From contig CACFLM010000008.1 in the NCBI GenBank assembly GCA_902567145.1, positions 1-22,466 of the forward strand: a stretch of DNA of 22,466 bases, written 5' to 3'. Position 1 is the first letter of the stretch. Every line of letters begins with the position of its first letter. The stretch is from an uncultured Alphaproteobacteria bacterium (GTDB lineage Bacteria; Pseudomonadota; Alphaproteobacteria; TMED127). Of the stretch, positions 1-22,466 are shown in pieces. Under the pieces are notes generated by a model. It searched no databases. It was not told the DNA's origin and saw only the letters and a program-made list of their open reading frames with translations. The position numbers were made by a program, and so were the translations under genes.

Positions 1-465
1 CTCTGCTCGATTAATTAATATACCTTTATCCTGCAAAAACATCCAATCATCAAAATCAACTTTAATATTTGAATCATTGACCTTCAAATTTAATTTATAT
101 TTCCAGTTAAGTGCGTTTCCACTCGCTTCGCCAACTGCCAAGCCAATTACATCATCCGCTGTTCCAGAATATTTCTTATTACCTAACATTTTAATTTTCC
201 ATATTCTTTGATCTTCTTCTCCGTCATCATATAGAAACTTTTCGTCAAGTGTTAGTTCATTACCAGATAATGTTCCTGTTATATCAACTTTAAAGGACCT
301 TTTTAAGTTTCCAAACCTGTCGTGGAAGAGTCCCCATGCTTGGGTTTTTCCAGAGAAATATTCTTCCAATGAGAATTCTGGCTCAATATTTGAGAATTTA
401 TTTATATTCATTTCGCTAGTACAAGAATTTAAAATAAGTAATAATGTTATAAAAAAAAATTTCAC
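1..465 (-). CDS. DUF3833 family lipoprotein, left copy, 3' end cut by window edge
   Basis: This is an identical mirror copy of the gene at 22002-22466. It reads from a GTG at 465 down to the window edge, giving 155 residues without a stop. A short lipoprotein signal is visible (hydrophobic residues 3-12, lipobox LNSC with Cys15), so the protein should be lipid-anchored in the envelope. The DUF3833 signature DDWMFLQDKGILINR is near the end of what is visible, so I infer that only about 20-30 C-terminal residues are missing. It lies 30 bp downstream of the MFS gene on the same strand. Its biochemical function is unknown; DUF3833 proteins typically accompany DUF1365, CFA-like methyltransferase and FAD oxidoreductase genes. 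Whether this copy exists in the real genome depends on the reality of the inverted repeat. Confidence 0.75.
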   Translation of the reverse strand, partial: MKFFFITLLLILNSCTSEMNINKFSNIEPEFSLEEYFSGKTQAWGLFHDRFGNLKRSFKVDITGTLSGNELTLDEKFLYDDGEEDQRIWKIKMLGNKKYSGTADDVIGLAVGEASGNALNWKYKLNLKVNDSNIKVDFDDWMFLQDKGILINRAE

Positions 466-495
466 TTTTTAAATATAATCAATTCCCAATTAAAT

Positions 496-1779
496 TCATC
501 TTTTAATTTTCTTTTGAATTTTAATTAATTCTTTTTGGCTCGATTTGAAATTTGTTAATTTCATAAACGACACAATCTTGAGAACTATTGGAATAATGGC
601 ATAAGAAAAAATAATAAAATAATAACTATTCTTACTTGTTGGTAAATTAGCATCAAAACCTAGTAAACCTAGAGAACCAAAAACAAAAAAACTCCCTAAC
701 GCAAATGATAGTTTTGTTATTGCAGTTATAAGAGAAAAAAGTACTCCTGAAATCTCTTCTTTATATTTTTGTTCGTGCATATCTGTCATATCTGCTTGAA
801 TTGATGGCGGAAGAACTAGATCGGCCCCCAAACAAAATCCAGTAAGGCAAGAAATTATCGTAAAAAGAAATAGATCTCCTGGATCAAGGAATATGACAAA
901 ACTAAAAAAAATCGAGGATGACATTAATGAAATAGACCAGGCTCTAGCTTTATTTGTTTTCTTACTTAATTGCGTCCAAAAAGGAACCCCAAGAATTGCA
1001 AATAGGAAATAGAAAAACAATATTCTCTGCCTATCAAAATCATTTCCGTCTAAAACATATGTAATGTAGAAAGCAAATAATATCATTGGAAAAACATTTG
1101 CACATGAATTAATGAACCATATCAAGAGAAACTTTCTTAATCTTGAATGTGATAATATATTTACAAATGACTTTTTTAAAGAAATTTTCTTCTTTAAATT
1201 ATTGTCATCTTTAATAAAAAAACATAAGAAAAAGACTCCTATAAAACCAGATACTATTGCTAACTTTACTAAGTATTCTGCTAAAACAATATTATTTATT
1301 GATAGGACCATAGGAATGCAAAGAGATGAAAATAAGCCCATCAATATGAACACCTCTCTTATTGCACTAAGTTTAGTTCTATAAAAATAACTATCCTCTA
1401 GATCATAACCCATGGAAAGATAAGGTATCTGAAACATTGTCCAGCCTAGATACAATAAACCAATCCAAAGCAGTAAGTATTCTTCATAAGGAATTTTAGT
1501 TATTAAAAATAGTTTGAATAAAGATATTGCAGATATGATTGACCCAATAACTATTAAAACTTTTCGACCAAACATTCTTCTATCATTTAGCCATCCAACA
1601 AAAGGATCAGTTAAGATATCAATTAATTTTGCAATAAAAAGGAACAGACCAACTTTTGCAACAGGGACACCCAAACTCTCAGTATAGAGAGCTGGTAGAA
1701 AAATCATTACAGGGAATGTGGGAATAGCAAATGCAAATGCAGGAGATGCATAAAGGATATCTCTTAAATTTATCTTCAA
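496..1779 (-). CDS. GPH-type MFS transporter, left copy
   Basis: This is an identical duplicate of 20688-21971, 427 residues with about 12 hydrophobic segments, and so a cytoplasmic-membrane transporter. The loop after the second membrane segment carries the family signature (TDPFVGWLNDR followed by GRK), as in the glycoside-pentoside-hexuronide/MelB branch (COG2211). It starts with TTG one base after the stop of the methyltransferase gene, indicating translational coupling. The substrate is unknown; in related operons this protein is presumed to move a lipid precursor or an associated small molecule, which is inference only. This copy is downstream of an incomplete cluster whose FAD oxidoreductase is reduced to a short tail fused to rsmB. 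Confidence 0.85.
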   Translation of the reverse strand: MKINLRDILYASPAFAFAIPTFPVMIFLPALYTESLGVPVAKVGLFLFIAKLIDILTDPFVGWLNDRRMFGRKVLIVIGSIISAISLFKLFLITKIPYEEYLLLWIGLLYLGWTMFQIPYLSMGYDLEDSYFYRTKLSAIREVFILMGLFSSLCIPMVLSINNIVLAEYLVKLAIVSGFIGVFFLCFFIKDDNNLKKKISLKKSFVNILSHSRLRKFLLIWFINSCANVFPMILFAFYITYVLDGNDFDRQRILFFYFLFAILGVPFWTQLSKKTNKARAWSISLMSSSIFFSFVIFLDPGDLFLFTIISCLTGFCLGADLVLPPSIQADMTDMHEQKYKEEISGVLFSLITAITKLSFALGSFFVFGSLGLLGFDANLPTSKNSYYFIIFSYAIIPIVLKIVSFMKLTNFKSSQKELIKIQKKIKR

Positions 1780-1780
1780 T

Positions 1781-2968
1781 TTAGATTTTCTTAATCAAGA
1801 ATTGACCAACATTTATATTTCCAGATTGAAAACCACCTTGGCAATAACTAAGATAATAATTCCACATTCTTTTGAAAGTATCATTAAAGCCCATATTTCT
1901 TATATTTTCCCAAGATTTTTCAAAAGATTTTCTCCAATATTCTAGTGTTTTTGCATAGTGGTCTCCAAACATAAAATGAGAGTCGACTTTTAACCCATTT
2001 TTATCAAGAACATGATTCATTGCTTCAACTGATGGAAGCATGCCACCAGGAAAGATATAAGTTTGAATAAAATCCGGAAACTTTCTGTATTTTCTAAAAA
2101 ATTTATCATCTATTGTGATGGTTTGGAGGCCAATACATCCTTCATTTTTAAGATTATTTCTTAAGATCTTAAAATAATCTGTCCAGTATTTTTCTCCAAC
2201 AGCCTCAAACATTTCAATTGAAACAATCTTGTCAAATTTGCCAGAAACATCTCTATAATCCGTTAACTCTACATTAACTAAATCATTTAATTCTTTTTTA
2301 TGAATATTTTGTTTAACCGATTTGTACTGATTCTCAGATATTGTTATTGCTGTTACTTGAGCTTTATAATTTTTTGCAAGAAATTCACTGAACCCTCCCC
2401 AGCCACAGCCTATTTCTAAAATTTTTTCATTCTTTTTCACATCAATTAGTTCTGCCAAATTCTTATATTTATTTATCTGCGCATCATATAGATCATCTCT
2501 CTTATTTTTAAAAATAGCGGACGAATATGTCATGGATTCATCTAGCCACGATTGATAGAAATTGTTACCTAGATCATAGTGGAACTTTATATTTTTTTGA
2601 GAGCCATTTTTTGTGTTCCTATTGAAGAAATGTTTTATTCTCAAATAAAAAATAATATACCATTTTCCTCGTATGAATTTTGAAAATTCATGGAAGTTCT
2701 TTGCACCCCACTCTAAAAAATCAGTTAAATTCGGTGTGCTCCAGTTTGCTTCTATAAAACTTTCAGCCCAACCTAAATCGCCTTTTAAAAAGAAATCATC
2801 CAAACACTTTTCTCTTTTAATAACAATTTTCGAACTTGGACCTTCATAAGGTCCTTTATGCTTAAAAAGGATATTATTCCTGTATTCTACAATAATACTC
2901 CCAAATTTACTTTGAGAAAGCACACTAAAGAATAGATCTAGTTTTTTAGTAAAGTCGTTATTGATCAT
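1781..2968 (-). CDS. Cyclopropane-fatty-acid-synthase-like SAM methyltransferase, left copy
   Basis: This is an identical duplicate of 19499-20686 (395 residues). SAM-binding motif I (EIGCGWGG, residues 185-192) and the HYDLGNNFY block (130-138) place it in the CFA synthase family, which transfers a methyl group from SAM to a double bond of a membrane phospholipid acyl chain. The residue replacements discussed for the right copy (Ser149, Gln282) are equally present here. It overlaps the DUF1365 gene by one base (TAATG) and is followed one base later by the MFS gene. In this arm there is no complete FAD oxidoreductase upstream, so if the duplication is real this copy would act only as extra dosage or be driven from rsmB expression. 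Confidence 0.88.
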   Translation of the reverse strand: MINNDFTKKLDLFFSVLSQSKFGSIIVEYRNNILFKHKGPYEGPSSKIVIKREKCLDDFFLKGDLGWAESFIEANWSTPNLTDFLEWGAKNFHEFSKFIRGKWYIIFYLRIKHFFNRNTKNGSQKNIKFHYDLGNNFYQSWLDESMTYSSAIFKNKRDDLYDAQINKYKNLAELIDVKKNEKILEIGCGWGGFSEFLAKNYKAQVTAITISENQYKSVKQNIHKKELNDLVNVELTDYRDVSGKFDKIVSIEMFEAVGEKYWTDYFKILRNNLKNEGCIGLQTITIDDKFFRKYRKFPDFIQTYIFPGGMLPSVEAMNHVLDKNGLKVDSHFMFGDHYAKTLEYWRKSFEKSWENIRNMGFNDTFKRMWNYYLSYCQGGFQSGNINVGQFLIKKI

Positions 2969-3729
2969 TATTTAATAATAGTAAAATCGTTAATGGGTTT
3001 GAAAGGTTTTTTACTATACTTAGCTCCTTTAATGTATAGTTTCAAGGCTTGATAATATATTCCAAAAGTTATCTTAATATTTTGAAACGATCTTTTAAAA
3101 AAAACATTAATTAGATTACTATAATTTAGGTCTATTGCTTTTCCAGAAAAATTAGCACAAAACACCTTTTTTTGACTAACTTCATAATCAATATTTAGAG
3201 ATATCCTTTTATTTATCATTTTTAATTTAATTTCGTATAAACCCTTAACTTTAAAAAATGGGGAAACATATAATCTTTTTTTAAAGAAAAAAGATTTTTT
3301 TTTTTCTGAAATTCTACAATAATATGAATGTCTTTCATTGAAAGTATTATTAACCTCAAATATAACAATTTTTGCTCTTTTATATTTGTCAAAACCTACA
3401 AATACTGAAATTGGATTAAATGAATAACCTAAAATATCTGGAAGACAAAGAATTTTTATGTGATCTATGTTAGTGTTTTCTAACTTTTTTAGGTTCTTAA
3501 CTATTGACTTAAACAACGTTTCTTTTCTTCTCTTTTTACCATGATCTCGCTCATTAAAAGAAAATAAACTAAACTTATTTTTTTTAAAAAGAAGATTCTC
3601 TTGTGGGTTTTTTATATCTAGCCAAAAATATGTAGCGTAATATTTAAAACTGTGATTAAAAGGATGTTTCCTAGCATGAGTTATCACACCTTCAAACAGA
3701 CTATCATCATGAAAAACAATCTGATTCAT
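2968..3729 (-). CDS. DUF1365 family protein, left copy
   Basis: This is an identical duplicate of 18738-19499 (253 residues). It shows the DUF1365 blocks: an N-terminal V-H-x-R pattern with P23 and H26, LGYSFNPIS around residues 100-108, EVNNTFNERH at 125-134 and YVSPF at 154-158. The biochemical activity is not established; members are nearly always encoded beside an FAD amine-oxidase-like protein and a CFA-like methyltransferase, implying a shared role in fatty-acid modification. It begins 3 bp after the stop of the fused rsmB/oxidoreductase frame, the same spacing as in the intact operon on the right. Confidence 0.85.
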   Translation of the reverse strand: MNQIVFHDDSLFEGVITHARKHPFNHSFKYYATYFWLDIKNPQENLLFKKNKFSLFSFNERDHGKKRRKETLFKSIVKNLKKLENTNIDHIKILCLPDILGYSFNPISVFVGFDKYKRAKIVIFEVNNTFNERHSYYCRISEKKKSFFFKKRLYVSPFFKVKGLYEIKLKMINKRISLNIDYEVSQKKVFCANFSGKAIDLNYSNLINVFFKRSFQNIKITFGIYYQALKLYIKGAKYSKKPFKPINDFTIIK

Positions 3730-3732
3730 GAT

Positions 3733-4326
3733 TTATGCCCTTTTGAGTAATTCATTAGCTACTTTTATACCAGACTTAATTCCATCTTGTGTCCCCAGAT
3801 AATTTTTTTTAATTTTAATATCTAAGTAGGGTTCTTTAATTACAGTTCTAGATATTTCTTTGAGTGCATTTTTTCCTAAATTAACTGAAATGTCTTTTTT
3901 AATCCAATTTGGGATATTTACTTCAAGAGTTTGATTTTTAAGGATCTTAGCTTTATTCCTACAAATATTTCTTAAAAGTCCATTAACAAATTTATCAAAT
4001 TTATAATTTTTAGCAATTTGTACTGCCGAATTTACAATTGAATATTCTTTTATTTCCAAGAAAAGAATTTGACAAATAGAGATTCTTATAAGATTTAAAA
4101 TAAAAACGTCTTTTTTTTTTAATGGTCGTCTAACGAAATCATTTATGACATTTGTAATTTGGCCATTTCTCCTTAAGGTATTCAAAATGATTGACCTTAC
4201 AAAAGCCTTATCTCTAGGATCAAGTCGACTGAAACTCTTGTTTTGAAGCATGGCTGTCTCAAAGAATTCAAATCTCGTATAAATATTATTGAGTATTTGA
4301 GTTGCTATTTCTCTTGAATTAGACAA
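3733..4326 (-). pseudogene. rsmB: rsmB fragment (NusB-like domain) fused in frame to the tail of the FAD oxidoreductase
   Basis: Residues 1-179 match the N-terminal part of RsmB, the 16S rRNA m5C967 methyltransferase. They include the NusB-like helical domain (RDKAFVRSIILNTLRR, residues 38-53; the VNGLLRNICRNK end) and the start of the linker to the catalytic domain (IPNWIKKDI). From base 3788 outward the sequence switches to the inverted repeat, and residues 181-197 are the last residues of the FAD oxidoreductase (ends ELLKRA). The whole SAM-binding catalytic domain, more than 200 residues in known RsmB proteins, is missing, so the product could not methylate rRNA. The start is a TTG at 4326; no better in-frame start aligns with the family. 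The join falls mid-codon and happens to stay in frame. Either rsmB is truly broken here or, more likely, the native gene continues elsewhere and this join is artificial. Confidence 0.85.
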
Positions 4327-4368
4327 TTATTTATGGAAAAAGATTATATTATTTATTAAATTATTATC

Positions 4369-4503
4369 ATGAATAAATTAATTAAACAGAAAAAAATCAA
4401 AAATCCAAAAGCTCAAAAAATTAAGGAGATAGGAGGGCCTTCTGGTCTTGAACCCACAAGATATGGTGATTGGGAAAAAAAGGGAATATGCTATGATTTC
4501 TAG
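4369..4503 (+). CDS. DUF1674 protein (SDHAF4-like succinate dehydrogenase assembly factor)
   Basis: A 44-residue protein starts at ATG 4369 and stops with TAG at 4501-4503. Its second half carries the DUF1674 signature: GGPSGLEPTRYGDWEKKG (residues 22-39), then a terminal CYDF. This matches the family pattern GGPxGxEPTRYGDWxxKGxxxDF. The eukaryotic relative, Sdh8/SDHAF4, binds the flavinylated SdhA subunit and helps assemble succinate dehydrogenase; the same role is inferred here. The N-terminal half is lysine-rich and unstructured, as usual for the family. It is divergent from rsmB (42 bp between starts) and convergent with acs (4 bp between stops). DUF1674 beside rsmB is an arrangement I associate with alphaproteobacteria. 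The motif is nearly perfect, so confidence is high despite the length. Confidence 0.92.
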   Translation: MNKLIKQKKIKNPKAQKIKEIGGPSGLEPTRYGDWEKKGICYDF

Positions 4504-4507
4504 CCTG

Positions 4508-6424
4508 CTATTCTCTATTTTTTATTAGTTCATCAACTACTTCTGGTTCATTTAATGTAGATGTGTCCCCAATGGAATCCTCCTCTTTGCAAGCAACCTT
4601 TCTAAGAATACGCCTCATAATTTTTCCTGATCTTGTTTTAGGAAGATTGGGTGCCCACTGAATGATATCAGGAGCAGCAATCGGACCTATTACATTTCTT
4701 ACCCATCTTACTAAATCTTTTTTTAATTCTGCAGTATACTTTTGACCCTCCATTAGTGTAACGTAAGCATATATTCCTTGGCCTTTAATATCATGTGGGT
4801 AACCAATAACCGCTGCCTCTGAAACTTTTTCATGTAAAACTAGCGCACTTTCAACTTCAGCTGTCCCCAATCGATGACCAGAGACATTAATTACATCATC
4901 AACTCGACCGGTAATCCAATAATAACCATCATTATCCCTCTTACAGCCGTCTCCTGTAAAATATTTGCCTTTAAAAGAAGAGAAATACGTTTCAACAAAT
5001 CTTTTATGATCATTGTACACAGTCCTCATCATTCCCGGCCATGAAGAAGTAATACATAAATTACCTTCACATTCACCAGATAATATTTTACCTTCACTGT
5101 CCACAATAACAGGTTCAACACCGTAAAATGGGAGAGTTGCAGAGCCAGGTTTAAGGGGAGTTGTTCCTGCTATAGGAGAAATTAATGCTGCACCTGTTTC
5201 TGTCTGCCACCAAGTATCTATAACTGGACATTTTTCCTCACCAACAATTTCGTAATACCACTTCCAAGCTTCAGGATTAATAGGCTCGCCGACTGTTCCT
5301 AAAATTCTTAATGAAGATCTTTTTGTTGTTTTAACGAATTTGTCACCTAAACCCATGAGAGCTCTGATTGCTGTGGGTGCTGTATAAAAGATACTTACAT
5401 TAAATTTATCTACAACTTCCCAAAATCTTGATGCTGTGGGATAGGTTGGAACTCCTTCAAACATTAAAGTAGTAGACCCGTTACATAATGGTCCATAAAC
5501 GATGTATGAATGTCCGGTAACCCAGCCAACATCTGCTGTACACCAGTACACATCTTCATCTTGAAGATTAAAGATAACTTTATGACTTAATGAAGCATGA
5601 AGCAGGTAACCTGCACTTGTATGGAGAACACCTTTAGGTTTTCCGGTTGAACCTGATGTATAGAGAATAAAAAGAGGGTCCTCGGCATTCTGCTCAACTA
5701 TTTCACAAGATTCGGGTTGTTCTGAGATTAAATCATCATACCAAATATCATTATTTTTATTGAAATATTTATTACAATCTGTTCGTTTGACAACAATTGT
5801 CTTTTTTAATTTGGGATATCCCTCTAATGCCTTTTTTACATTTGATAAAAGAGGAATTTTCTTCCCACCCCTTATACCCTCATTCGCAGTTATTAAATAT
5901 GAAGAATTACAATCTTCAATTCTATTTCTTAATGATTCTGGGGCAAATCCTCCAAAAACAACTGAATGGATAGCACCAATCCTAGCACAAGACAACATTG
6001 CAATTGCAGCCTCAGGTATCATTGGCATATAGATAGTTATTCTATCACCTTTTTGGACACCTAGTGAAAGCAATCCATTGGAAAACTTACAAACTTCTTT
6101 AAAAAGTTCATTGTACGTGATTTTTTTTGATATATTTGGATCATCTGATTCCCAAATAATTGCTATTTTATTTCCTTTATCTTTTAGATGTCTATCTAAA
6201 CAATTCTGACTCACATTTAGCGTGCCATCAGCAAACCATTTTATGTTCACTTTATCTTCAAATGAACTCTCTTTAACCTTTTTGAATTTTTTAATCCAAT
6301 TCAACGAATTTGCTTTTTCTCTCCAAAAAAGATCTGGATCATTTATTGATGTTTTATATTCTTTTGAATAATCTTCAAAAGACATGCTTTTAGAGTTAAC
6401 TTTATTTTTAACAAGATTCTTCAT
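4508..6424 (-). CDS. acs: Acetyl-CoA synthetase, AMP-forming
   Basis: This enzyme activates acetate with ATP and CoA to acetyl-CoA through acetyl-adenylate, in the cytoplasm. The 638 residues are close to the usual ~650. Visible features are the N-terminal ACS segment, the adenylate-forming P-loop [11 protein letters not shown] (255-265), the DTWWQTETG block (403-411) with the conserved Trp that shapes the acetate pocket, GDG and TGR motifs (491-493, 506-507), and the C-terminal [11 protein letters not shown] with Lys601. That lysine is the position acetylated to inhibit the enzyme in other bacteria. The start is ATG 6424. It is separated from the upstream YciI gene by 66 bp, so it may have its own promoter, and it converges on the DUF1674 gene. 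It would let the cell use external acetate or recycle its own. Confidence 0.97.
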
Positions 6425-6490
6425 TTTTTATCGAATTCTAACTCTACGCTTATCGGCTGGTCAATATTATTTTTCTTTTATATAAAAAAA

Positions 6491-6763
6491 CTATAGAACT
6501 TTCTTAAATTCTGTAATATTTACTTCTTTAAAAAGTCCTTCCTTTGAATATGGATCATTTTTTAAAAACTTATTTACTTCTTCTATATTATTAAAATCTA
6601 GCACCAAAACTGTCCCTTTCGGATTCTGGTTTTGGTCAAGAATAGGTCCCGCAAGTATTAACTTTTTTTTTATTCTCTTTAAATGTTTTATATGTTCTTC
6701 TCTTGTGGCAAGTCTTAAATTAAGTGAATCTTTTTTATCAATACATGTGATTAAGTAGGTCAT
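6491..6763 (-). CDS. YciI-like protein
   Basis: This is a 90-residue single-domain protein with a ferredoxin-like alpha/beta pattern. It has the YciI features: an N-terminal beta strand (YLITCIDK), REEHIKHL (21-28) with conserved His24, an AGPILD turn (38-43), and NDPYSKEGLF (69-78) with Asp70. The family is thought to have a small-molecule active site built on His/Asp residues, but the physiological reaction is unknown, so no function is assigned beyond family. Its start codon overlaps the gpsA stop by one base (TAATG), so it is probably translated by coupling with gpsA. A gcp/tsaD-gpsA-YciI order is familiar from alphaproteobacteria. Confidence 0.85.
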   Translation of the reverse strand: MTYLITCIDKKDSLNLRLATREEHIKHLKRIKKKLILAGPILDQNQNPKGTVLVLDFNNIEEVNKFLKNDPYSKEGLFKEVNITEFKKVL

Positions 6764-7698
6764 TAGTTTTCAAATTGGAGTGGTCTAGAAAGAAGTTCTG
6801 AAATTATTTTACTGGAATCAACTCCATTAATTATTCTTCGAACAGAATTACATATTGGTAGTTCAACATTATATTTTTTACCAAGATTACAAATGCTTTC
6901 ACAAGACTCAACACCCTCAAGCAAAATATTCTTTTTGATATTGAAGAGTTTTTTCCCTGCTGCAAGTTCATAACCAAATTTTGTATTTCTAGATTTAAGT
7001 GATGAGCATGTGAGGATTAGATCCCCGATACCAGATAAGCCGTAAAATGTTTTCCTTTTGGCTCCCATATTTAAACCTAACTTAACTATCTCAGAGATCC
7101 CTCTTGTTATTATTGCGGCTTTAGCATTTTCTCCTAGGTTATTTCCCTTAATAAACCCACACGCAATAGCAATCACATTCTTCATAGCACCTCCAAGCTG
7201 AGTTCCAATAATATCATTATTAAAGTAAATTCTGAATCTTTTTTGTGATAAGATTTGTGAGACCTTTGATAATGCTTTTTCATTTAATGAAGATAAAACA
7301 CATGCAGACGGTTTTTTTGCAATTAGTTCTGACGAAAAATTTGGTCCTGAAAGTATTACAACTCTGTTTCTAGGAAAAATATCTGAGATAACTTCATTCA
7401 TGAGTTTACACGTCTTTTTTTCAACCCCTTTGCTACAAACTATGAATACAAACTCCTTATTTTCTGTATTCCTTTTTAATTCAACAAGATTTTTTCTTAT
7501 AGATTGAGATGGTATTGCTAAAAAAATATAATCAGAATCATTTAATTCTTTAAACTTATCTGTAAATTCAATTTGTTTATTTGCAAACTTTGATTTGTCG
7601 AGAACTTTTCTATATTTAATTCTAATTCTCTTTTCCACAATAACTTTTGTTAGTGCCAATGCCCATGAACCCGATCCAATAATAGATATTTTCTTCAT
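6763..7698 (-). CDS. gpsA: Glycerol-3-phosphate dehydrogenase [NAD(P)+]
   Basis: This enzyme reduces dihydroxyacetone phosphate to sn-glycerol-3-phosphate, the backbone for phospholipids, in the cytoplasm. I chose ATG 7698 (311 residues) because it puts the Rossmann motif GSGSW at residues 8-12 and overlaps the tsaD stop by 4 bp; an in-frame extension to 7716 adds six residues without family match. Visible motifs are SKGVE (89-93, Lys90), SGPNF (117-121), GGAMKNV with catalytic Lys173, GIGDL with Asp226, and SRN (236-238). It is somewhat short: the region between the first Rossmann motif and the AIPSQ block (61-65) lacks about 15 residues found in typical GpsA, including the usual NPxYLPG segment. 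The third Rossmann glycine is Ala (GSGSWA). The C-terminal half is well conserved, so it should be functional. Confidence 0.94.
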   Translation of the reverse strand: MKKISIIGSGSWALALTKVIVEKRIRIKYRKVLDKSKFANKQIEFTDKFKELNDSDYIFLAIPSQSIRKNLVELKRNTENKEFVFIVCSKGVEKKTCKLMNEVISDIFPRNRVVILSGPNFSSELIAKKPSACVLSSLNEKALSKVSQILSQKRFRIYFNNDIIGTQLGGAMKNVIAIACGFIKGNNLGENAKAAIITRGISEIVKLGLNMGAKRKTFYGLSGIGDLILTCSSLKSRNTKFGYELAAGKKLFNIKKNILLEGVESCESICNLGKKYNVELPICNSVRRIINGVDSSKIISELLSRPLQFEN

Positions 7699-8726
7699 AA
7701 ACTGTCTAATCTCCAACGAGGTTTGGGTGGTAAATTAATCTTACTACTTGCTTTTCTATTCTTCATAATTTCAAGTCCAGCCCATGCTATCATAGTTGCA
7801 TTATCAACACATAAATTTTTATCTGGAGCAAAAAAAGATATTCTATTTCTTTTACATAAAAGTTTAAAACTTTCTCTTATATAGGTGTTTGATGCAACAC
7901 CACCAGACAAGACAAAATTATCAATATTCAATTTTTTTTTTATAATATTAAAAGATAACTCTACTTTTTTTATTAAGCACTCAGTAACTACACTCTGAAA
8001 TTCATTGGCAAGGTCATATTTTTGATCTCTATTTATACCTTTTTCAACTATTCTTCTTACAGCTGTTTTAAGTCCGGAGAAAGAGAGATTTAATGATTTG
8101 TTTTTCAAGAGCGGTTTTGGAAGATTAAAATTGTGTTTACCAGTACTTTTTTTTGCCAGCTCTTCTATTATGGGACCTCCCGGGTAACCATAACCCATAA
8201 TTCTTGAGATCTTGTCGTAAACTTCCCCTACAGCATCATCAAGCGTTTCTCCTAAAATTTTAAATTTATTATAGGCTCGGGCTAACAGAATCTGACAATG
8301 TCCACCAGAAACAAGAAGGCATACAAAAGGAAAAGGAATAGATTTTCTCATTCTTGAAACTAATATGTGTCCTTGTAGATGGTTAACCGACAAAAATGGT
8401 TTCTTTGATGATATTGCAAGAGCTTTGGCATAATTTGTTCCTACCAGTAATGCACCGAGAAGCCCCGGACCTGTAGTTGCAGCAAAAGCATCAATTTTTT
8501 TTAAGGATACTTTAGAAGATTTTAAGGTTTCTTTGACAATAAAATCAATGTTTTGACTATGTTCTCTTGATGCCAACTCAGGAACCACACCACCAAATTT
8601 TTTATGTTGTTCAATCTGTGATAAAGTTGTTTCTGATAAGATCTTTCCAAAATCTTTACTTTTTTCTTTTTCAACGATTGATACAGACGTCTCATCACAA
8701 CTTGTTTCTATTCCTAGAACTATCAT
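7695..8726 (-). CDS. tsaD: tRNA N6-adenosine threonylcarbamoyltransferase TsaD
   Basis: TsaD transfers the threonylcarbamoyl group from threonylcarbamoyl-AMP to A37 of tRNAs reading ANN codons, with TsaB and TsaE as partners. The 343-residue length is normal. Motifs include the N-terminal ETSCDETS (7-14) of the ASKHA fold, TTGPGLLGALLVG (84-96), the metal-binding HLQGH (His116 and His120), LLVSGGHCQI (137-146), GEVYDK (167-172) and the C-terminal VDNATMIAWAG segment. The start is ATG 8726, and the stop overlaps gpsA by 4 bp. It is the first gene of a leftward run tsaD-gpsA-yciI-like and diverges from hemC over 60 bp. Confidence 0.97.
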   Translation of the reverse strand: MIVLGIETSCDETSVSIVEKEKSKDFGKILSETTLSQIEQHKKFGGVVPELASREHSQNIDFIVKETLKSSKVSLKKIDAFAATTGPGLLGALLVGTNYAKALAISSKKPFLSVNHLQGHILVSRMRKSIPFPFVCLLVSGGHCQILLARAYNKFKILGETLDDAVGEVYDKISRIMGYGYPGGPIIEELAKKSTGKHNFNLPKPLLKNKSLNLSFSGLKTAVRRIVEKGINRDQKYDLANEFQSVVTECLIKKVELSFNIIKKKLNIDNFVLSGGVASNTYIRESFKLLCKRNRISFFAPDKNLCVDNATMIAWAGLEIMKNRKASSKINLPPKPRWRLDSL

Positions 8727-14382: not shown

Positions 14383-15987
14383 ATGAATATTTCTTTTGAT
14401 AAAAAATTTATTTTTTTCTTATTAATTTGTTTAATAATTTATTTTCAAGGAATACTAAGATTACCTGTTATGGATAGGGATGAGGCTAGATTTGCGACTG
14501 CATCTAAAACTATGCTTATTGATGGAGACTACATTGATATAAAAATGGTTGATGAGAAAAGGTACAAAAAACCTATTGGAATTTATTGGTCACAAGCTTT
14601 TGCAAACTCAATATTTGGGAGTTATCCCTTCGATAAGATATGGATCTACAGATTACCATCACTGTCAGGTATTTTTATATGCTTGCTACTGATTTTTTTA
14701 TTTATCAAGAAAATTGAGAACTCAAATGTCGCTCTTTTAACAGTATTTTTTCTTGTGTCATCAATCCTAACAATTTCTGAAGCCCATCAATCAAAAACTG
14801 ATGGCTTATTATTTTTATTTATAAGTTTATGTAACTTAATTATTTATAAATTTATTCATACTAAAAAAATAAATACCTATGAAAAAGTAGTTTATTGGAT
14901 TTCATTAGCTATTGGTATTTTAATTAAAGGTCCAATAATTATAGTATTCACTATTTTACCTTTGTCCCTTTTTTCATTTATAAAGAAGATAAATTATCTT
15001 AGAAGTATATGGTCAACTTTTGGTTTCATACTTTTTATTTGCATTTCAGTTCCTTGGTTTGTTTTGATAAATATTAAATCGGGTGGATTGTTTTGGTATG
15101 AATCAGTTGGGAATGACTTGCTTGAGAAGGTTAAATCAGGCAAGGAGTCACATGGTTTTCCACCAGGATATTATTCTTTATTAATATTTCTCTTTTTTTG
15201 GCCCGGCTGTTTATTTTTATTTAATCTAGTTAATAATATTAAGTCTAATTTTATGAAAATAGTTAGAAACGATGGTTTTTCATTCTATCTTATTTTGAGT
15301 TTCTTATTTCCGTTTATACTATTTGAATTGATACCAACTAAACTTCCTCATTATATCTACCCAGCCTATCTTCCATTAAGTATTTTGATATCGAAACATA
15401 TCTTTAACAATGATTTTAATCCAAGGATTATGAATTATGCTACGATTCCTTTATTAATTTTTCCAATAACTATAATTTTATTATTAATATTTTCAACGAT
15501 CGAATTCTCAAAAGTAGACTTAAATTTCATAATTATAATTTCTTGTTTTATATTTTTTACTTTTTTCTTGTTTTGGCTTAGAATCAAAGAAAAAGTTAGG
15601 CATATAATCATTGCTTCAGGTTCTTTTCAGGCTCTAACATACTTAGTTCTTATTTTTTTTTTAATACCTAGGTTAGAGAGTTTATGGATCTCTGAAAAGA
15701 TAAATAATACTATCTTAAAGCATGAGAAAGGGATAGATAAAGTTTTTACCATTGGTTTTAATGAACCCAGTTTATTATTTTTAACATCGCATAAATCCAG
15801 TAATTCCTTCGAGAATTTCGATACCAGTAAAATTATAGAAAAAAAAATTCTGTTAATTGTTACTGAGAAATTTAATAAAAATATAAGAGAAGATGAAGAT
15901 TTCTCTAGTTTTATACTTATTGATCAGTTTGTTGGTTTTAATTATTCCAGAGGTGAAGATGTTAGTTTTAAAGTTTACAAGAATTAA
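14383..15987 (+). CDS. ArnT-like GT83 membrane glycosyltransferase
   Basis: A 534-residue polytopic membrane protein of the PMT/ArnT (GT39/GT83) superfamily, with about a dozen hydrophobic segments and a shorter C-terminal soluble part. The first periplasmic loop has the catalytic signature MDRDEARFA (Asp33/Glu34 region), followed by KRYKKPIGIYW (59-69), matching the DEAR and KPP-x-YW blocks of ArnT. Family members use a polyprenyl-phosphate sugar as donor and glycosylate lipid A or core sugars on the periplasmic side. The donor would be supplied by the divergent GT2/LAB_N pair. The start is ATG 14383; 3 bp separate it from the PAP2 gene. The transferred sugar and acceptor site cannot be read from the sequence. 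Confidence 0.9.
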   Translation: MNISFDKKFIFFLLICLIIYFQGILRLPVMDRDEARFATASKTMLIDGDYIDIKMVDEKRYKKPIGIYWSQAFANSIFGSYPFDKIWIYRLPSLSGIFICLLLIFLFIKKIENSNVALLTVFFLVSSILTISEAHQSKTDGLLFLFISLCNLIIYKFIHTKKINTYEKVVYWISLAIGILIKGPIIIVFTILPLSLFSFIKKINYLRSIWSTFGFILFICISVPWFVLINIKSGGLFWYESVGNDLLEKVKSGKESHGFPPGYYSLLIFLFFWPGCLFLFNLVNNIKSNFMKIVRNDGFSFYLILSFLFPFILFELIPTKLPHYIYPAYLPLSILISKHIFNNDFNPRIMNYATIPLLIFPITIILLLIFSTIEFSKVDLNFIIIISCFIFFTFFLFWLRIKEKVRHIIIASGSFQALTYLVLIFFLIPRLESLWISEKINNTILKHEKGIDKVFTIGFNEPSLLFLTSHKSSNSFENFDTSKIIEKKILLIVTEKFNKNIREDEDFSSFILIDQFVGFNYSRGEDVSFKVYKN

Positions 15988-15990
15988 AGT

Positions 15991-16767
15991 ATGAATAATT
16001 ATAGAGACTTAGAATTTCTGTTATCAATTAAATTTTTCTTATTAATTTCTTTAATTGTATTATTACTATTTAATTTTTTTGACATTCACTTATTTGAACT
16101 TTCTAGATCTTTCCCGGGAATTATCTTTAATTTCTTTAAAGAAATTATTGATCCACTATCGAATCTTCTAGACCCCTTGAATCTAATAATTATTTGTGTG
16201 CTAATTTTATTTTTAAATTCAAATATCAAATTAATTATAAAGAATGAAAAAAAATTTGAAATAATTAAATCTAAAACTGATTTTAATATAGAAAAGGTTA
16301 AAGACCTCTTCACCTTCACATCGCTAGTGTGCAGACATTTTGTATTTTCTTTGGCACTTGCTGGCATTCTTTGCAATATCCTAAAATACATTTTTGGTGT
16401 ATCCAGGCCTAAATACTTTTTTTTAGAAGGTTATGAAAGAATGAATTTTTTTAATTTAGAACACAAAGTAAGTTCTTTTCCCTCAGGGCATACTCAAGCC
16501 GCATTTACTCTAGCTATTCTTGTTATGATATATTCTAGGAAGTATTATTTTCTTATAATAGCTATCGCTGTTTTAATGGGTCTATCTAGAATTTTTATGT
16601 CAATGCATTTCCCTAGTGATATTATTGCAGGGGCATATTTAGGTTCATTAGTTCCTATTATTCTTTATAAATATAGCTTTAGACGTAAAATTGAAAAAAT
16701 TAAAAAAAAACATGATTTTTTATTTAAAGACCTTATAAGATTAATGTATTGGAGGATGTTCATATGA
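15991..16767 (+). CDS. PAP2-family phosphatase (LpxE/LpxF-like)
   Basis: A 258-residue membrane phosphatase with all three PAP2 active-site motifs: K132-x6-RP (139-140), PSGH (164-167) and S199-R200-x5-H206-x3-D210. Several hydrophobic segments (about 11-30, 64-78, 110-130, 170-195, 213-226) place the active site at the periplasmic face. Candidate substrates are lipid A 1- or 4'-phosphate (LpxE/LpxF), undecaprenyl pyrophosphate, or phosphatidylglycerol phosphate. The position 3 bp after an ArnT-like transferase favours lipid A dephosphorylation, for example to free a position for a sugar, but this is inference. The last codons overlap the start of the following secreted-protein gene (ATGA). 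Confidence 0.88.
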   Translation: MNNYRDLEFLLSIKFFLLISLIVLLLFNFFDIHLFELSRSFPGIIFNFFKEIIDPLSNLLDPLNLIIICVLILFLNSNIKLIIKNEKKFEIIKSKTDFNIEKVKDLFTFTSLVCRHFVFSLALAGILCNILKYIFGVSRPKYFFLEGYERMNFFNLEHKVSSFPSGHTQAAFTLAILVMIYSRKYYFLIIAIAVLMGLSRIFMSMHFPSDIIAGAYLGSLVPIILYKYSFRRKIEKIKKKHDFLFKDLIRLMYWRMFI

Positions 16768-17078
16768 AAATTGTGTTTTTTTCTATTTTTTTTTACTTAT
16801 TGATTGTATGCAAAGGAACTAACTCTGCTAATTGGTGCAAGGTTATTTATAATCAAGGTATGACAGATGGTCAGGTTAAATCTCAATTATCAAAATGTAA
16901 GAATTCCGATAATATATTTATTGCAATTCACTCAGGTTTTCAAAATGCTGGGCATTTGCTCAACTCATTAGTGGCAGAGTATTGTGATATAAGACGAAAT
17001 CTTATTTCAACTAATCCTAGGAGTGGTGATCCATACTTTACTGTTGTATGTGAATTTAGGAAACATATTCTAAGATAA
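16764..17078 (+). CDS. Small secreted four-cysteine protein, unknown function
   Basis: A 104-residue protein. I chose ATG 16764 because a GGAGG lies 9-10 bases before it and the ATG overlaps the PAP2 stop as ATGA; a longer in-frame start at 16749 lacks these signals. Residues 1-22 form a signal peptide, probably cleaved after the NSA triplet. The mature part has four cysteines (in NWCK, SKCKN, EYCDI and VVCEF), an even number fitting two disulfides in the periplasm. I recognise no named domain. Overlap with the PAP2 gene places it in the lipid A/envelope run, so an envelope role is likely, but the function is unknown. Confidence 0.7.
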   Translation: MKIVFFSIFFYLLIVCKGTNSANWCKVIYNQGMTDGQVKSQLSKCKNSDNIFIAIHSGFQNAGHLLNSLVAEYCDIRRNLISTNPRSGDPYFTVVCEFRKHILR

Positions 17079-17115
17079 ATCACTAAACAATTTTGTGTTA
17101 TGTCGTTTAAGAAGT

Positions 17116-17289
17116 ATGCTTAGTTTGATTCATAGTCTTAGGTTTGACAGAAATAAAGAAAATTCTAGTTTCTCATTTAAAAAAGATCTTGAAAATTATA
17201 GTACCTCAGAATTAATACCATTTTCTTCATCGACTTTATGTAGCAAGCAACTGTCTTCTAATTGGATTTCGATTTATAGAAAACAATAA
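17116..17289 (+). CDS. Possible small protein ahead of the terminator, doubtful
   Basis: An open frame of 57 codons begins at ATG 17116 (a GTG at 17095 would add seven residues). The product is polar, rich in Ser, Lys and Asn, with no signal peptide, membrane span or recognisable motif. No good ribosome binding site precedes it. The only supporting point is that its TAA (17287-17289) touches the terminator hairpin, as real last genes often do. It could equally be the 3' untranslated tail of the preceding operon. Confidence 0.25.
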   Translation: MLSLIHSLRFDRNKENSSFSFKKDLENYSTSELIPFSSSTLCSKQLSSNWISIYRKQ

Positions 17290-17312
17290 AACCCTAGTGA
17301 GACTAGGGTTTT
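17288..17312 (+). terminator. Hairpin terminator after the GT83-PAP2-secreted-protein run
   Basis: A perfect 11-bp stem with a 3-nt loop (AAAACCCTAGT, GAG, ACTAGGGTTTT). The A-run before and T-run after the CCCTAGT core give an intrinsic terminator readable in both directions. It is the strongest hairpin noticed in the window and separates the lipid A run from the FAD/CFA-like operon. Confidence 0.85.
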
Positions 17313-17344
17313 ATTGGAGGAAATTAAAATAGACTTGAAACTAG

Positions 17345-17394
17345 TAATAACAAAAAGATTGATGAGAATGTTATTGCACAAAATTTTGTTATTA
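17345..17394. promoter_or_regulatory. Inverted repeat 1 in the leader of the lipid operon
   Basis: TAATAACAAAA (17345-17355) and TTTTGTTATTA (17384-17394) are perfect 11-bp inverted repeats, flanked further out by CTAG at 17341-17344 and 17400-17403. They could form an RNA stem-loop with a 28-nt loop, or a protein-binding site. The arms are AT-rich, so chance is possible. They lie 105-154 bp before the oxidoreductase start. Confidence 0.4.
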
Positions 17395-17407
17395 TCATAC
17401 TAGCCCA

Positions 17408-17456
17408 AAATCAATATATAGTAAGTAATACGGTAAGTCAAACAATATATTGATTT
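17408..17456. promoter_or_regulatory. Inverted repeat 2 with internal direct repeat, upstream of the FAD oxidoreductase
   Basis: AAATCAATATAT (17408-17419) and ATATATTGATTT (17445-17456) are perfect 12-bp inverted repeats with a 25-bp spacer. The spacer holds two GTAAGT copies (17421-17426 and 17433-17438) 12 bp apart. The site ends 42 bp before ATG 17499, a position suited to an operator or 5'-UTR hairpin for the lipid operon. I see no convincing sigma-E/ChrR-type promoter, but the -35/-10 boxes cannot be fixed by eye. Confidence 0.4.
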
Positions 17457-17498
17457 ATTTTGTTTTATTTAATTTTTTTTTTCTTAAAATTATTCTTA

Positions 17499-18734
17499 AT
17501 GAGTAAAGTAAAAATTGCCATAATTGGGAGCGGTATCTCGGGTTTATCCTGTGCATGGCATTTAGCAAGAAAGTATGATGTTGATATTTACGAAAGAAAT
17601 AATTATTTTGGAGGACACTCAAATACACATTCTTTCAGAATCAAAGATAAAGAGGTAAATATTGATACAGGATTCATTGTTTTTAATGAACTAAATTATC
17701 CTAATTTATGTAATTTTTTTAGATTATTGAATGTTGAGTCATATGCAAGTGATATGTCTTTTTCAGTATCAATGAATAAAGGAAATTTAGAATATTCAGG
17801 CTCGTCGATATCATCAATTTTTGCGCAAAGAAAGAATTTGTTCAATTTTAAATTTTTAAAAATGCTTTATGAAATTGTAAGATTTTACATTGAAGCTGAG
17901 AAAGACAGAGAATCTTTTAGAGGTATTACAATCTCTGAGTATCTTGATTTAAAAAAATATTCTCACTATTTTAAATATAATCATTTATTTCCAATGGCAG
18001 CCAGCATTTGGTCATCTCCAATTAGCAAGATTCCAGACTATCCATTTGTAGAGTTTGTGAAATTTTTCTCTAATCATGGATTACTTAGGATTTTTGATAG
18101 ACCAAAATGGCGCACAGTTAATGGAGGGAGTAAAGAATATGTAAAAAGAATCTTAGCGAATAAGAGAATTAAATCTTTTAAGAATACAAAAGTCATTGTT
18201 AAAAAAAAAAAAGGTAAATGGGAGGTAGCGAATAGAAAACAAAAAAAAAATTACGATCATCTAGTCGTAGGTGTGCATTCTGATCAGGTAGAAGATTTAA
18301 TTGTGTCTCCAAAATACAAATATTTAAAAATTTTTTCAAAAATAAAATATAGCAAAAATAATGTTTATCTTCACTCAGACTCTAAACTTATGCCAAAAAG
18401 AAAAGATGTGTGGGCAAGTTGGAATTATATTGAAAATGGTCCTCAAATAACGGTTACTTATTGGATGAATTTGTTACAACAAATTGGTACGAATAATAAC
18501 TTCTTTGTTACACTTAATCCTAAAAACCCACCTAAATCCGAAAAAATTGAAAAAAAAATTGTTTATGATCATCCAATTTATGACTTAGAGACTTTTAAAA
18601 GCCAAAAGATAATAGAATCAATACAAGGGAAAGAAAGCCTTTGGTTCTGTGGTGCTTACCTTGGATATGGATTTCATGAAGATGGAATTAAGTCTGGTAT
18701 AAAAGTAGCTAATGAATTACTCAAAAGGGCATAA
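17499..18734 (+). CDS. FAD-dependent oxidoreductase of the amine-oxidase-like COG2907 family
   Basis: A 411-residue flavoprotein. ATG 17499 is preferred over an in-frame ATG at 17460, because the extension is a low-complexity hydrophobic stretch before the natural Rossmann start. The dinucleotide-binding motif GSGISG (10-15) with acidic Glu32, GGHSNT (38-43) and DTGFIVFNELNYP (56-68) are visible. The C-terminal FAD-contact segment GAYLGYGFHEDGIKSG (385-400) is also present. The family lies next to DUF1365 and CFA-like genes in many proteobacteria and is thought to oxidise or desaturate modified fatty acyl chains; the furan-fatty-acid genes of Rhodobacter sphaeroides are the closest characterised context I know. 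It is the first gene of the five-gene operon, 3 bp before DUF1365. The right arm of the inverted repeat begins inside its codon 394, and its tail reappears fused to rsmB at 3733-3788. Confidence 0.92.
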   Translation: MSKVKIAIIGSGISGLSCAWHLARKYDVDIYERNNYFGGHSNTHSFRIKDKEVNIDTGFIVFNELNYPNLCNFFRLLNVESYASDMSFSVSMNKGNLEYSGSSISSIFAQRKNLFNFKFLKMLYEIVRFYIEAEKDRESFRGITISEYLDLKKYSHYFKYNHLFPMAASIWSSPISKIPDYPFVEFVKFFSNHGLLRIFDRPKWRTVNGGSKEYVKRILANKRIKSFKNTKVIVKKKKGKWEVANRKQKKNYDHLVVGVHSDQVEDLIVSPKYKYLKIFSKIKYSKNNVYLHSDSKLMPKRKDVWASWNYIENGPQITVTYWMNLLQQIGTNNNFFVTLNPKNPPKSEKIEKKIVYDHPIYDLETFKSQKIIESIQGKESLWFCGAYLGYGFHEDGIKSGIKVANELLKRA

Positions 18735-18737
18735 ATC

Positions 18738-19499
18738 ATGAATCAGATTGTTTTTCATGATGATAGTCTGTTTGAAGGTGTGATAACTCATGCTAGGAAA
18801 CATCCTTTTAATCACAGTTTTAAATATTACGCTACATATTTTTGGCTAGATATAAAAAACCCACAAGAGAATCTTCTTTTTAAAAAAAATAAGTTTAGTT
18901 TATTTTCTTTTAATGAGCGAGATCATGGTAAAAAGAGAAGAAAAGAAACGTTGTTTAAGTCAATAGTTAAGAACCTAAAAAAGTTAGAAAACACTAACAT
19001 AGATCACATAAAAATTCTTTGTCTTCCAGATATTTTAGGTTATTCATTTAATCCAATTTCAGTATTTGTAGGTTTTGACAAATATAAAAGAGCAAAAATT
19101 GTTATATTTGAGGTTAATAATACTTTCAATGAAAGACATTCATATTATTGTAGAATTTCAGAAAAAAAAAAATCTTTTTTCTTTAAAAAAAGATTATATG
19201 TTTCCCCATTTTTTAAAGTTAAGGGTTTATACGAAATTAAATTAAAAATGATAAATAAAAGGATATCTCTAAATATTGATTATGAAGTTAGTCAAAAAAA
19301 GGTGTTTTGTGCTAATTTTTCTGGAAAAGCAATAGACCTAAATTATAGTAATCTAATTAATGTTTTTTTTAAAAGATCGTTTCAAAATATTAAGATAACT
19401 TTTGGAATATATTATCAAGCCTTGAAACTATACATTAAAGGAGCTAAGTATAGTAAAAAACCTTTCAAACCCATTAACGATTTTACTATTATTAAATAA
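18738..19499 (+). CDS. DUF1365 family protein, right copy
   Basis: A 253-residue protein of unknown activity. The DUF1365 hallmarks are all present: H18-x-R20 with P23 and H26 near the N-terminus, NERDHG (59-64), LPDILGYSFNPIS (96-108), EVNNTFNERHSYYC (125-138) and KRLYVSPF (151-158). The many conserved His, Asn and Arg residues suggest a catalytic or metal/lipid-binding role, but none is proven. No membrane span is obvious. It lies between the FAD oxidoreductase (3-bp gap) and the CFA-like methyltransferase (1-bp overlap, TAATG). This is the standard order in proteobacterial fatty-acid modification clusters, so a role in that pathway is inferred from context. Confidence 0.88.
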   Translation: MNQIVFHDDSLFEGVITHARKHPFNHSFKYYATYFWLDIKNPQENLLFKKNKFSLFSFNERDHGKKRRKETLFKSIVKNLKKLENTNIDHIKILCLPDILGYSFNPISVFVGFDKYKRAKIVIFEVNNTFNERHSYYCRISEKKKSFFFKKRLYVSPFFKVKGLYEIKLKMINKRISLNIDYEVSQKKVFCANFSGKAIDLNYSNLINVFFKRSFQNIKITFGIYYQALKLYIKGAKYSKKPFKPINDFTIIK

Positions 19500-20686
19500 T
19501 GATCAATAACGACTTTACTAAAAAACTAGATCTATTCTTTAGTGTGCTTTCTCAAAGTAAATTTGGGAGTATTATTGTAGAATACAGGAATAATATCCTT
19601 TTTAAGCATAAAGGACCTTATGAAGGTCCAAGTTCGAAAATTGTTATTAAAAGAGAAAAGTGTTTGGATGATTTCTTTTTAAAAGGCGATTTAGGTTGGG
19701 CTGAAAGTTTTATAGAAGCAAACTGGAGCACACCGAATTTAACTGATTTTTTAGAGTGGGGTGCAAAGAACTTCCATGAATTTTCAAAATTCATACGAGG
19801 AAAATGGTATATTATTTTTTATTTGAGAATAAAACATTTCTTCAATAGGAACACAAAAAATGGCTCTCAAAAAAATATAAAGTTCCACTATGATCTAGGT
19901 AACAATTTCTATCAATCGTGGCTAGATGAATCCATGACATATTCGTCCGCTATTTTTAAAAATAAGAGAGATGATCTATATGATGCGCAGATAAATAAAT
20001 ATAAGAATTTGGCAGAACTAATTGATGTGAAAAAGAATGAAAAAATTTTAGAAATAGGCTGTGGCTGGGGAGGGTTCAGTGAATTTCTTGCAAAAAATTA
20101 TAAAGCTCAAGTAACAGCAATAACAATATCTGAGAATCAGTACAAATCGGTTAAACAAAATATTCATAAAAAAGAATTAAATGATTTAGTTAATGTAGAG
20201 TTAACGGATTATAGAGATGTTTCTGGCAAATTTGACAAGATTGTTTCAATTGAAATGTTTGAGGCTGTTGGAGAAAAATACTGGACAGATTATTTTAAGA
20301 TCTTAAGAAATAATCTTAAAAATGAAGGATGTATTGGCCTCCAAACCATCACAATAGATGATAAATTTTTTAGAAAATACAGAAAGTTTCCGGATTTTAT
20401 TCAAACTTATATCTTTCCTGGTGGCATGCTTCCATCAGTTGAAGCAATGAATCATGTTCTTGATAAAAATGGGTTAAAAGTCGACTCTCATTTTATGTTT
20501 GGAGACCACTATGCAAAAACACTAGAATATTGGAGAAAATCTTTTGAAAAATCTTGGGAAAATATAAGAAATATGGGCTTTAATGATACTTTCAAAAGAA
20601 TGTGGAATTATTATCTTAGTTATTGCCAAGGTGGTTTTCAATCTGGAAATATAAATGTTGGTCAATTCTTGATTAAGAAAATCTAA
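19499..20686 (+). CDS. Cyclopropane-fatty-acid-synthase-like SAM methyltransferase, right copy
   Basis: A 395-residue member of the CFA synthase family, which methylates double bonds in membrane phospholipid acyl chains using SAM. Motifs are HYDLGNNFY (130-138), EIGCGWGG (185-192, SAM motif I), EMFEAVGEKYW (252-262), YIFPGGMLPS (304-313) and YLSYCQGGF (372-380). Compared from memory with E. coli Cfa, Glu255 (E239), Ile284 (I268) and Tyr338 (Y317) of the bicarbonate pocket are kept. Cys139 is replaced by Ser149 and His266 by Gln282, and the residue after the catalytic glutamate is Ala instead of His. This argues for a product other than a plain cyclopropane, such as methyl, methylene or a furan precursor. 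The start is ATG 19499, coupled to DUF1365; the MFS gene follows after one base. Confidence 0.9.
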   Translation: MINNDFTKKLDLFFSVLSQSKFGSIIVEYRNNILFKHKGPYEGPSSKIVIKREKCLDDFFLKGDLGWAESFIEANWSTPNLTDFLEWGAKNFHEFSKFIRGKWYIIFYLRIKHFFNRNTKNGSQKNIKFHYDLGNNFYQSWLDESMTYSSAIFKNKRDDLYDAQINKYKNLAELIDVKKNEKILEIGCGWGGFSEFLAKNYKAQVTAITISENQYKSVKQNIHKKELNDLVNVELTDYRDVSGKFDKIVSIEMFEAVGEKYWTDYFKILRNNLKNEGCIGLQTITIDDKFFRKYRKFPDFIQTYIFPGGMLPSVEAMNHVLDKNGLKVDSHFMFGDHYAKTLEYWRKSFEKSWENIRNMGFNDTFKRMWNYYLSYCQGGFQSGNINVGQFLIKKI

Positions 20687-20687
20687 A

Positions 20688-21971
20688 TTGAAGATAAATT
20701 TAAGAGATATCCTTTATGCATCTCCTGCATTTGCATTTGCTATTCCCACATTCCCTGTAATGATTTTTCTACCAGCTCTCTATACTGAGAGTTTGGGTGT
20801 CCCTGTTGCAAAAGTTGGTCTGTTCCTTTTTATTGCAAAATTAATTGATATCTTAACTGATCCTTTTGTTGGATGGCTAAATGATAGAAGAATGTTTGGT
20901 CGAAAAGTTTTAATAGTTATTGGGTCAATCATATCTGCAATATCTTTATTCAAACTATTTTTAATAACTAAAATTCCTTATGAAGAATACTTACTGCTTT
21001 GGATTGGTTTATTGTATCTAGGCTGGACAATGTTTCAGATACCTTATCTTTCCATGGGTTATGATCTAGAGGATAGTTATTTTTATAGAACTAAACTTAG
21101 TGCAATAAGAGAGGTGTTCATATTGATGGGCTTATTTTCATCTCTTTGCATTCCTATGGTCCTATCAATAAATAATATTGTTTTAGCAGAATACTTAGTA
21201 AAGTTAGCAATAGTATCTGGTTTTATAGGAGTCTTTTTCTTATGTTTTTTTATTAAAGATGACAATAATTTAAAGAAGAAAATTTCTTTAAAAAAGTCAT
21301 TTGTAAATATATTATCACATTCAAGATTAAGAAAGTTTCTCTTGATATGGTTCATTAATTCATGTGCAAATGTTTTTCCAATGATATTATTTGCTTTCTA
21401 CATTACATATGTTTTAGACGGAAATGATTTTGATAGGCAGAGAATATTGTTTTTCTATTTCCTATTTGCAATTCTTGGGGTTCCTTTTTGGACGCAATTA
21501 AGTAAGAAAACAAATAAAGCTAGAGCCTGGTCTATTTCATTAATGTCATCCTCGATTTTTTTTAGTTTTGTCATATTCCTTGATCCAGGAGATCTATTTC
21601 TTTTTACGATAATTTCTTGCCTTACTGGATTTTGTTTGGGGGCCGATCTAGTTCTTCCGCCATCAATTCAAGCAGATATGACAGATATGCACGAACAAAA
21701 ATATAAAGAAGAGATTTCAGGAGTACTTTTTTCTCTTATAACTGCAATAACAAAACTATCATTTGCGTTAGGGAGTTTTTTTGTTTTTGGTTCTCTAGGT
21801 TTACTAGGTTTTGATGCTAATTTACCAACAAGTAAGAATAGTTATTATTTTATTATTTTTTCTTATGCCATTATTCCAATAGTTCTCAAGATTGTGTCGT
21901 TTATGAAATTAACAAATTTCAAATCGAGCCAAAAAGAATTAATTAAAATTCAAAAGAAAATTAAAAGATGA
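20688..21971 (+). CDS. GPH-type MFS transporter, right copy
   Basis: A 427-residue cytoplasmic-membrane protein with about 12 hydrophobic spans and the MelB/GPH-like loop TDPFVGWLNDR...GRK at about residues 57-73 (COG2211). MelB-type proteins move sugars with Na+ or H+, but here the substrate is unknown. Members in fatty-acid modification operons, including the sigma-E-regulated Rhodobacter operon with FAD oxidase and CFA-like genes, have no proven cargo. The start is TTG 20688, one base after the methyltransferase stop; no ATG aligns with the conserved N-terminus (ILYASPAFAFA). The DUF3833 gene begins 30 bp after its stop, completing the operon. Confidence 0.88.
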   Translation: MKINLRDILYASPAFAFAIPTFPVMIFLPALYTESLGVPVAKVGLFLFIAKLIDILTDPFVGWLNDRRMFGRKVLIVIGSIISAISLFKLFLITKIPYEEYLLLWIGLLYLGWTMFQIPYLSMGYDLEDSYFYRTKLSAIREVFILMGLFSSLCIPMVLSINNIVLAEYLVKLAIVSGFIGVFFLCFFIKDDNNLKKKISLKKSFVNILSHSRLRKFLLIWFINSCANVFPMILFAFYITYVLDGNDFDRQRILFFYFLFAILGVPFWTQLSKKTNKARAWSISLMSSSIFFSFVIFLDPGDLFLFTIISCLTGFCLGADLVLPPSIQADMTDMHEQKYKEEISGVLFSLITAITKLSFALGSFFVFGSLGLLGFDANLPTSKNSYYFIIFSYAIIPIVLKIVSFMKLTNFKSSQKELIKIQKKIKR

Positions 21972-22001
21972 ATTTAATTGGGAATTGATTATATTTAAAA
22001 A

Positions 22002-22466
22002 GTGAAATTTTTTTTTATAACATTATTACTTATTTTAAATTCTTGTACTAGCGAAATGAATATAAATAAATTCTCAAATATTGAGCCAGAATTCTCATTG
22101 GAAGAATATTTCTCTGGAAAAACCCAAGCATGGGGACTCTTCCACGACAGGTTTGGAAACTTAAAAAGGTCCTTTAAAGTTGATATAACAGGAACATTAT
22201 CTGGTAATGAACTAACACTTGACGAAAAGTTTCTATATGATGACGGAGAAGAAGATCAAAGAATATGGAAAATTAAAATGTTAGGTAATAAGAAATATTC
22301 TGGAACAGCGGATGATGTAATTGGCTTGGCAGTTGGCGAAGCGAGTGGAAACGCACTTAACTGGAAATATAAATTAAATTTGAAGGTCAATGATTCAAAT
22401 ATTAAAGTTGATTTTGATGATTGGATGTTTTTGCAGGATAAAGGTATATTAATTAATCGAGCAGAG
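22002..22466 (+). CDS. DUF3833 family lipoprotein, right copy, 3' end cut by window edge
   Basis: The frame opens at GTG 22002 and runs to the window end (155 codons, no stop). The N-terminus is a short lipoprotein signal (KFFFITLLLILNSC) with lipid-modified Cys15, so the mature protein is membrane-anchored and exported. The rest is a beta-rich lipocalin-like pattern including WGLFHDRFG (about 42-50), LDEKFLYDDG (about 74-83) and DDWMFLQDKGILINR near the cut, all typical of DUF3833. No enzymatic role is established; a lipid- or pigment-handling envelope protein is a guess from context. About 20-30 residues are probably missing. Confidence 0.78.
   Translation, partial: MKFFFITLLLILNSCTSEMNINKFSNIEPEFSLEEYFSGKTQAWGLFHDRFGNLKRSFKVDITGTLSGNELTLDEKFLYDDGEEDQRIWKIKMLGNKKYSGTADDVIGLAVGEASGNALNWKYKLNLKVNDSNIKVDFDDWMFLQDKGILINRAE

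Follow-up and report, generated by a model that had tools for sequence, protein, structure and literature searches.

Exact inverted arms at the ends of a 22,466-base alphaproteobacterial contig are very probably an artefact

Genes of the core and of the two arms

The window analysed here, a stretch of 22,466 bases, is an entire sequence record, and its two outermost segments are inverted copies of each other that reach both record ends. Comparison of the window with its own reverse complement showed that positions 1-3788 and 18679-22466 are reverse complements of each other without a single mismatch, the identity running inwards from each end for exactly 3,788 bases and then stopping abruptly. 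A repeat search of the window likewise gave arms of 100% complementarity with 14,890 bases between them, confirming the initial annotation, which had described perfect inverted terminal repeats around a unique core of this length. The next inverted pair after the arms, among the 25 of 27 pairs listed, measured 38 nt at 74%, and the identity of the arms is far beyond chance. The GC content is 28.5% in the arm and 28.5% in the core.

Gene calls and Pfam matches place the genes of the right arm (18679-22466) on the plus strand. The arm opens with the last 56 bases of an intact gene for an FAD/NAD(P)-binding oxidoreductase (17460-18734, plus strand; the FAD gene below), followed by DUF1365 (18738-19499), CMAS (19499-20686), MFS_2 (20688-21971) and DUF3833, which starts at 22002 and is cut by the record end. 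The left arm (1-3788) carries on the minus strand the end of the FAD gene, DUF1365, CMAS, MFS and the truncated DUF3833. Both record ends thereby cut the DUF3833 gene, whose aligned frame in G404, the closest genome that we found, is 57 bases longer than in the window.

The unique core (3789-18678) was annotated with Pfam and is colinear in relatives; the gene symbols used here are our reading of the Pfam matches. It holds part of rsmB (the N-part, with the NusB domain), acs, YCII, gpsA, tsaD, hemC, hemD and a 342-aa protein, and also a hemY-like gene (HemY_N), HhH-GPD, LAB_N, a family 2 glycosyltransferase, PMT_2, PAP2, a 109-aa protein and most of the FAD gene. Two of the 19 proteins scanned had no Pfam match, namely the 342-aa protein (10430-11458) and the 109-aa protein (16749-17078), and both have counterparts in G404, 66% and 76% identical respectively. 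The FAD protein has a homologue of 410 aa (P0002, 81% identical) with similarity kept to the last residues, among the 120 of 7,815 matches listed. The Pfam matches of the 19 proteins included no mobile-element family and no replication or mobility gene, ARAGORN found no tRNA in the window, and no Rfam family reached its gathering threshold there. In its content the contig looks like an ordinary bacterial chromosome.

The rsmB gene at the left junction

At the inner end of the left arm, between 3788 and 3789, the rsmB gene is interrupted. Gene calls, Pfam and comparison with G404 define a fused frame on the minus strand (3733-4326) that consists of 179 native rsmB codons, one mixed codon and then 17 residues of the FAD C-terminus, this tail being read in the FAD gene's own frame. 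The product keeps the NusB domain and has no methyltransferase domain; the RsmB of G404 carries the RsmB/F methyltransferase domain. Past rsmB, on the side away from acs, G404 has a heparinase-like gene. The broken partner gene noticed in the initial annotation is thus rsmB, with a tail supplied by the FAD gene. In the family of related genomes described below, rsmB was detected in 28 of 32 genomes, always within an open frame of 426-440 aa, and in these 28 no stop codon fell inside the match.

We considered 144 listed RsmB matches, made up of 120 of 749 listed for RsmB and 24 listed with the truncated protein as the query; the RsmB-FAD tail, searched as two short motifs, occurred among them in the window's own protein and in none of the others. 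At least 420 aa were present in 117 of the 120. The matches listed that come nearest to the 179 native residues, apart from the protein itself, were P0257 (84%, a 111-aa piece) and P0121 (81%, 430 aa), and the 144 contained no near-identical strain. In the protein collection the RsmB-FAD fusion protein (P0241) forms a cluster of its own with a single member.

The same region in related genomes

Relatives were reached by a genome search centred on a Terasakiella genome, whose class, and hence that of the genomes searched, we take to be Alphaproteobacteria. This class search covered a sample of 385 genomes out of a larger group, and a closer relative may exist outside this sample and the family. 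Its three best TsaD matches (75, 72 and 62%) all fell in one family, that of genome G010, and the 32 genomes of this family were then searched. A HemC scan of genome contigs gave three loci, all of them distant (39-42% identity).

The window from 3799 to 22466 is colinear with positions 15828-34506 of a 125,833-base contig of G404 (C3), at 81.8% identity over 18,710 columns, and the G404 sequence runs on at both sides of this block. Window positions 1-3786 align in reverse to G404 30721-34506 (82.4%), the very stretch that matches the right arm (alignments of more than 150 columns were considered). One alignment stops at 3786 and the other begins at 3799, which brackets the putative chimeric junction at 3788/3789. 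A 401-base query spanning the junction breaks up when aligned to G404, its two pieces matching separate loci on opposite strands. Position 15828 of G404 is the counterpart of one side of the join and 30721 that of the other; they lie 14.9 kb apart, so that the segment between them is skipped.

Gene maps of 11 relatives, built from matches above 50 bits, agreed in gene order as far as the fetched contigs extend. The succession FAD-DUF1365-CMAS-MFS-DUF3833 was kept in all 7 of the 11 in which the whole block was covered; the other four maps are incomplete, those of G400 and G402 ending inside DUF1365 and the contigs of G406 and G401 ending earlier. In the fetched regions of these 11 relatives the longest inverted self-match was 68 bases. 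Across the family DUF1365 was detected in 27 of 32 genomes, as a single copy in each. Both rsmB and DUF1365 are present in 26 genomes, and in the 20 that have them on one contig the two genes point apart (20/20); the count of order leaves out the 6 of 26 with the genes on different contigs, two genomes with rsmB only and one with DUF1365 only. In the window the gap from rsmB to DUF1365 is 14,412 bases to the right copy and 61 bases to the left copy. The spacing of the two genes (window 3790-19499) is nearly constant in the family, at 14,340-14,795 bases in all 20 same-contig genomes.

No match crossed the left junction in the 32 family genomes when the 401-base query was used; 18 of them gave any match at all, and this was a first look in which 21 candidates were scored of the 39-75 per genome and to which the 14 matchless genomes contribute nothing. 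The 26-mer at the junction had no exact match in viral_contigs, which says little about chromosomal DNA. The arm was not seen adjoining rsmB in any relative among the 32 family genomes. The initial annotation had called for a comparison with related genomes, and this gave a full-length rsmB frame in 28 of 32 genomes, DUF1365 once each in 27 of 32 and the right-side order preserved in the 7 of 11 maps that cover it, in agreement with its suggestion that the right arm is the single-copy one. Since both arms align to one and the same stretch of G404 and the right arm does so colinearly, we regard the right arm as native and the left arm, as judged from these alignments, as a surplus inverted copy joined inside rsmB. 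The true chromosome would then probably read rsmB - core - FAD - DUF1365 - CMAS - MFS - DUF3833, and its right side would hold the single copy of the arm.

Origin of the surplus arm

Taking all artefactual origins together, the inverted repeats are very probably an artefact. The initial annotation favoured this reading, and the relatives support it through the full-length rsmB, the kept order of the arm genes, the single DUF1365 and the unseen junction. Its arguments carry unequal weight: the broken gene stands, and the identical end points and complete identity are weaker since they would fit a recent duplication left unresolved by the assembly just as well. We consider the comparison with relatives to be the deciding evidence. 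The closest of them that we found shares about 82% of its DNA sequence with the window, and the comparison may leave room for a change private to the strain.

Within the artefactual origins, the contig is likely an amplification chimera, most plausibly one produced by MDA with phi29 polymerase, the amplification step itself being surmised. Inverted joins were said in the initial annotation to be the main type of MDA chimera, and Lasken and Stockwell 2007 (PMC1855051) agree, giving inversions as 406 of 475 MDA chimeras. As in those chimeras the two joined segments are inverted relative to each other, as seen with the junction query in G404, and the intervening segment is missing at the join (G404 15828 against 30721). 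The geometry also fits a 3' end that was displaced and primed anew on a displaced strand. Most inverted MDA chimeras have short complementarity at the join; here we can offer about 2 bases (AA), a guess by eye in which G404 stands in for the strain's own sequence past 3789. According to Lasken and Stockwell (PMC1855051) the joined points were less than 10 kb apart in 337 of 406 inversions, and unlike most of these the points here are separated by 14.9 kb, which puts the join in a minority class and counts against this origin.

In such an event a 3' end extending leftward through rsmB during whole-genome amplification would have detached at base 3789. The loose end could then have re-primed at the site matching 18679, on a displaced strand and some 14.9 kb further back, and the arm would have been copied outward from there, joining rsmB to an inverted arm. 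The polarity would fit, as a leftward strand in rsmB would switch to an opposite-sense template at 18679. The assembler may finally have linked one arm sequence to the core on either side and written it twice, and because the arm would thus be attached at both core ends, both record ends would stop at the same base. Palindromic MDA reads have been described (PMC13265396), and PMC12755884 reports mirrored contigs in single-amplified genomes that were removed as very likely artefacts. Our contig resembles the latter in that one part is mirrored exactly in another; it differs from them, where the first half is mirrored in the second, in having a unique 14.9-kb core between the arms.

An artefact made without amplification, in which an assembler or scaffolder or a library ligation chimera joined rsmB to the arm and the arm was used twice, is unlikely but deserves some weight. 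It would yield the same contig, one graph node used at both ends would explain the equal end points, and the evidence from relatives backs any artefact equally, this kind included. The authors of PMC12755884 moreover call their palindromic contigs very likely assembly artefacts. Against it, a graph overlap would have no visible cause in the window, as besides the arms the longest repeat listed is one of 42 bases (11463/11586) that lies away from the joined places, and a random ligation chimera would presumably seldom choose a partner from the same genome 15 kb away.

We consider it improbable that the arms are a real and recent inverted duplication private to the strain, with an arm copy of at least 3,788 bases inserted into rsmB. 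A recent real copy would likewise be identical, an unresolved real repeat would end the contig at the copy ends, and a relative about 82% identical leaves such a private event conceivable. But it would have broken a gene that has a full-length frame in all 28 of the 32 family genomes in which it was found, and DUF1365 was never found twice in the 27 of 32 genomes that gave a match. No family genome showed the same structure or a match across the join, the junction query having matched anything at all in 18 of the 32. Neither a mobile-element Pfam family (19 proteins) nor a tRNA nor an Rfam family at gathering threshold is at hand in the window, and the arm ends, on its outer side, within a gene. 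If the duplication were real the 14.9-kb core could flip between the arms by recombination and rsmB would lack the methyltransferase domain whichever way the core lay, a full scenario to which we give very little credence.

That the arms mark the termini of a linear replicon, be it a virus, a plasmid or a linear chromosome, was an option raised in the initial annotation, and the repeats do reach both record ends exactly. It is scarcely credible and is contradicted by housekeeping genes that line up with internal stretches of longer contigs (125,833 bases in G404, which continues on both sides rather than ending at the repeats), by a gene cut at both ends and by the lack of any megablast match in phage or plasmid collections. 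Phage and plasmid readings were rejected on the same gene content and megablast negatives, and the CMAS protein, scanned against viral_contigs, had no relative there.

Taken as a whole, the inverted repeat is in our judgement very unlikely to be a real genomic feature. Contigs of this kind seed databases with false duplicate genes, with false broken genes such as the rsmB-FAD fusion and with false terminal repeats, and screening for contig ends that are reverse-complementary to each other would detect such artefacts.
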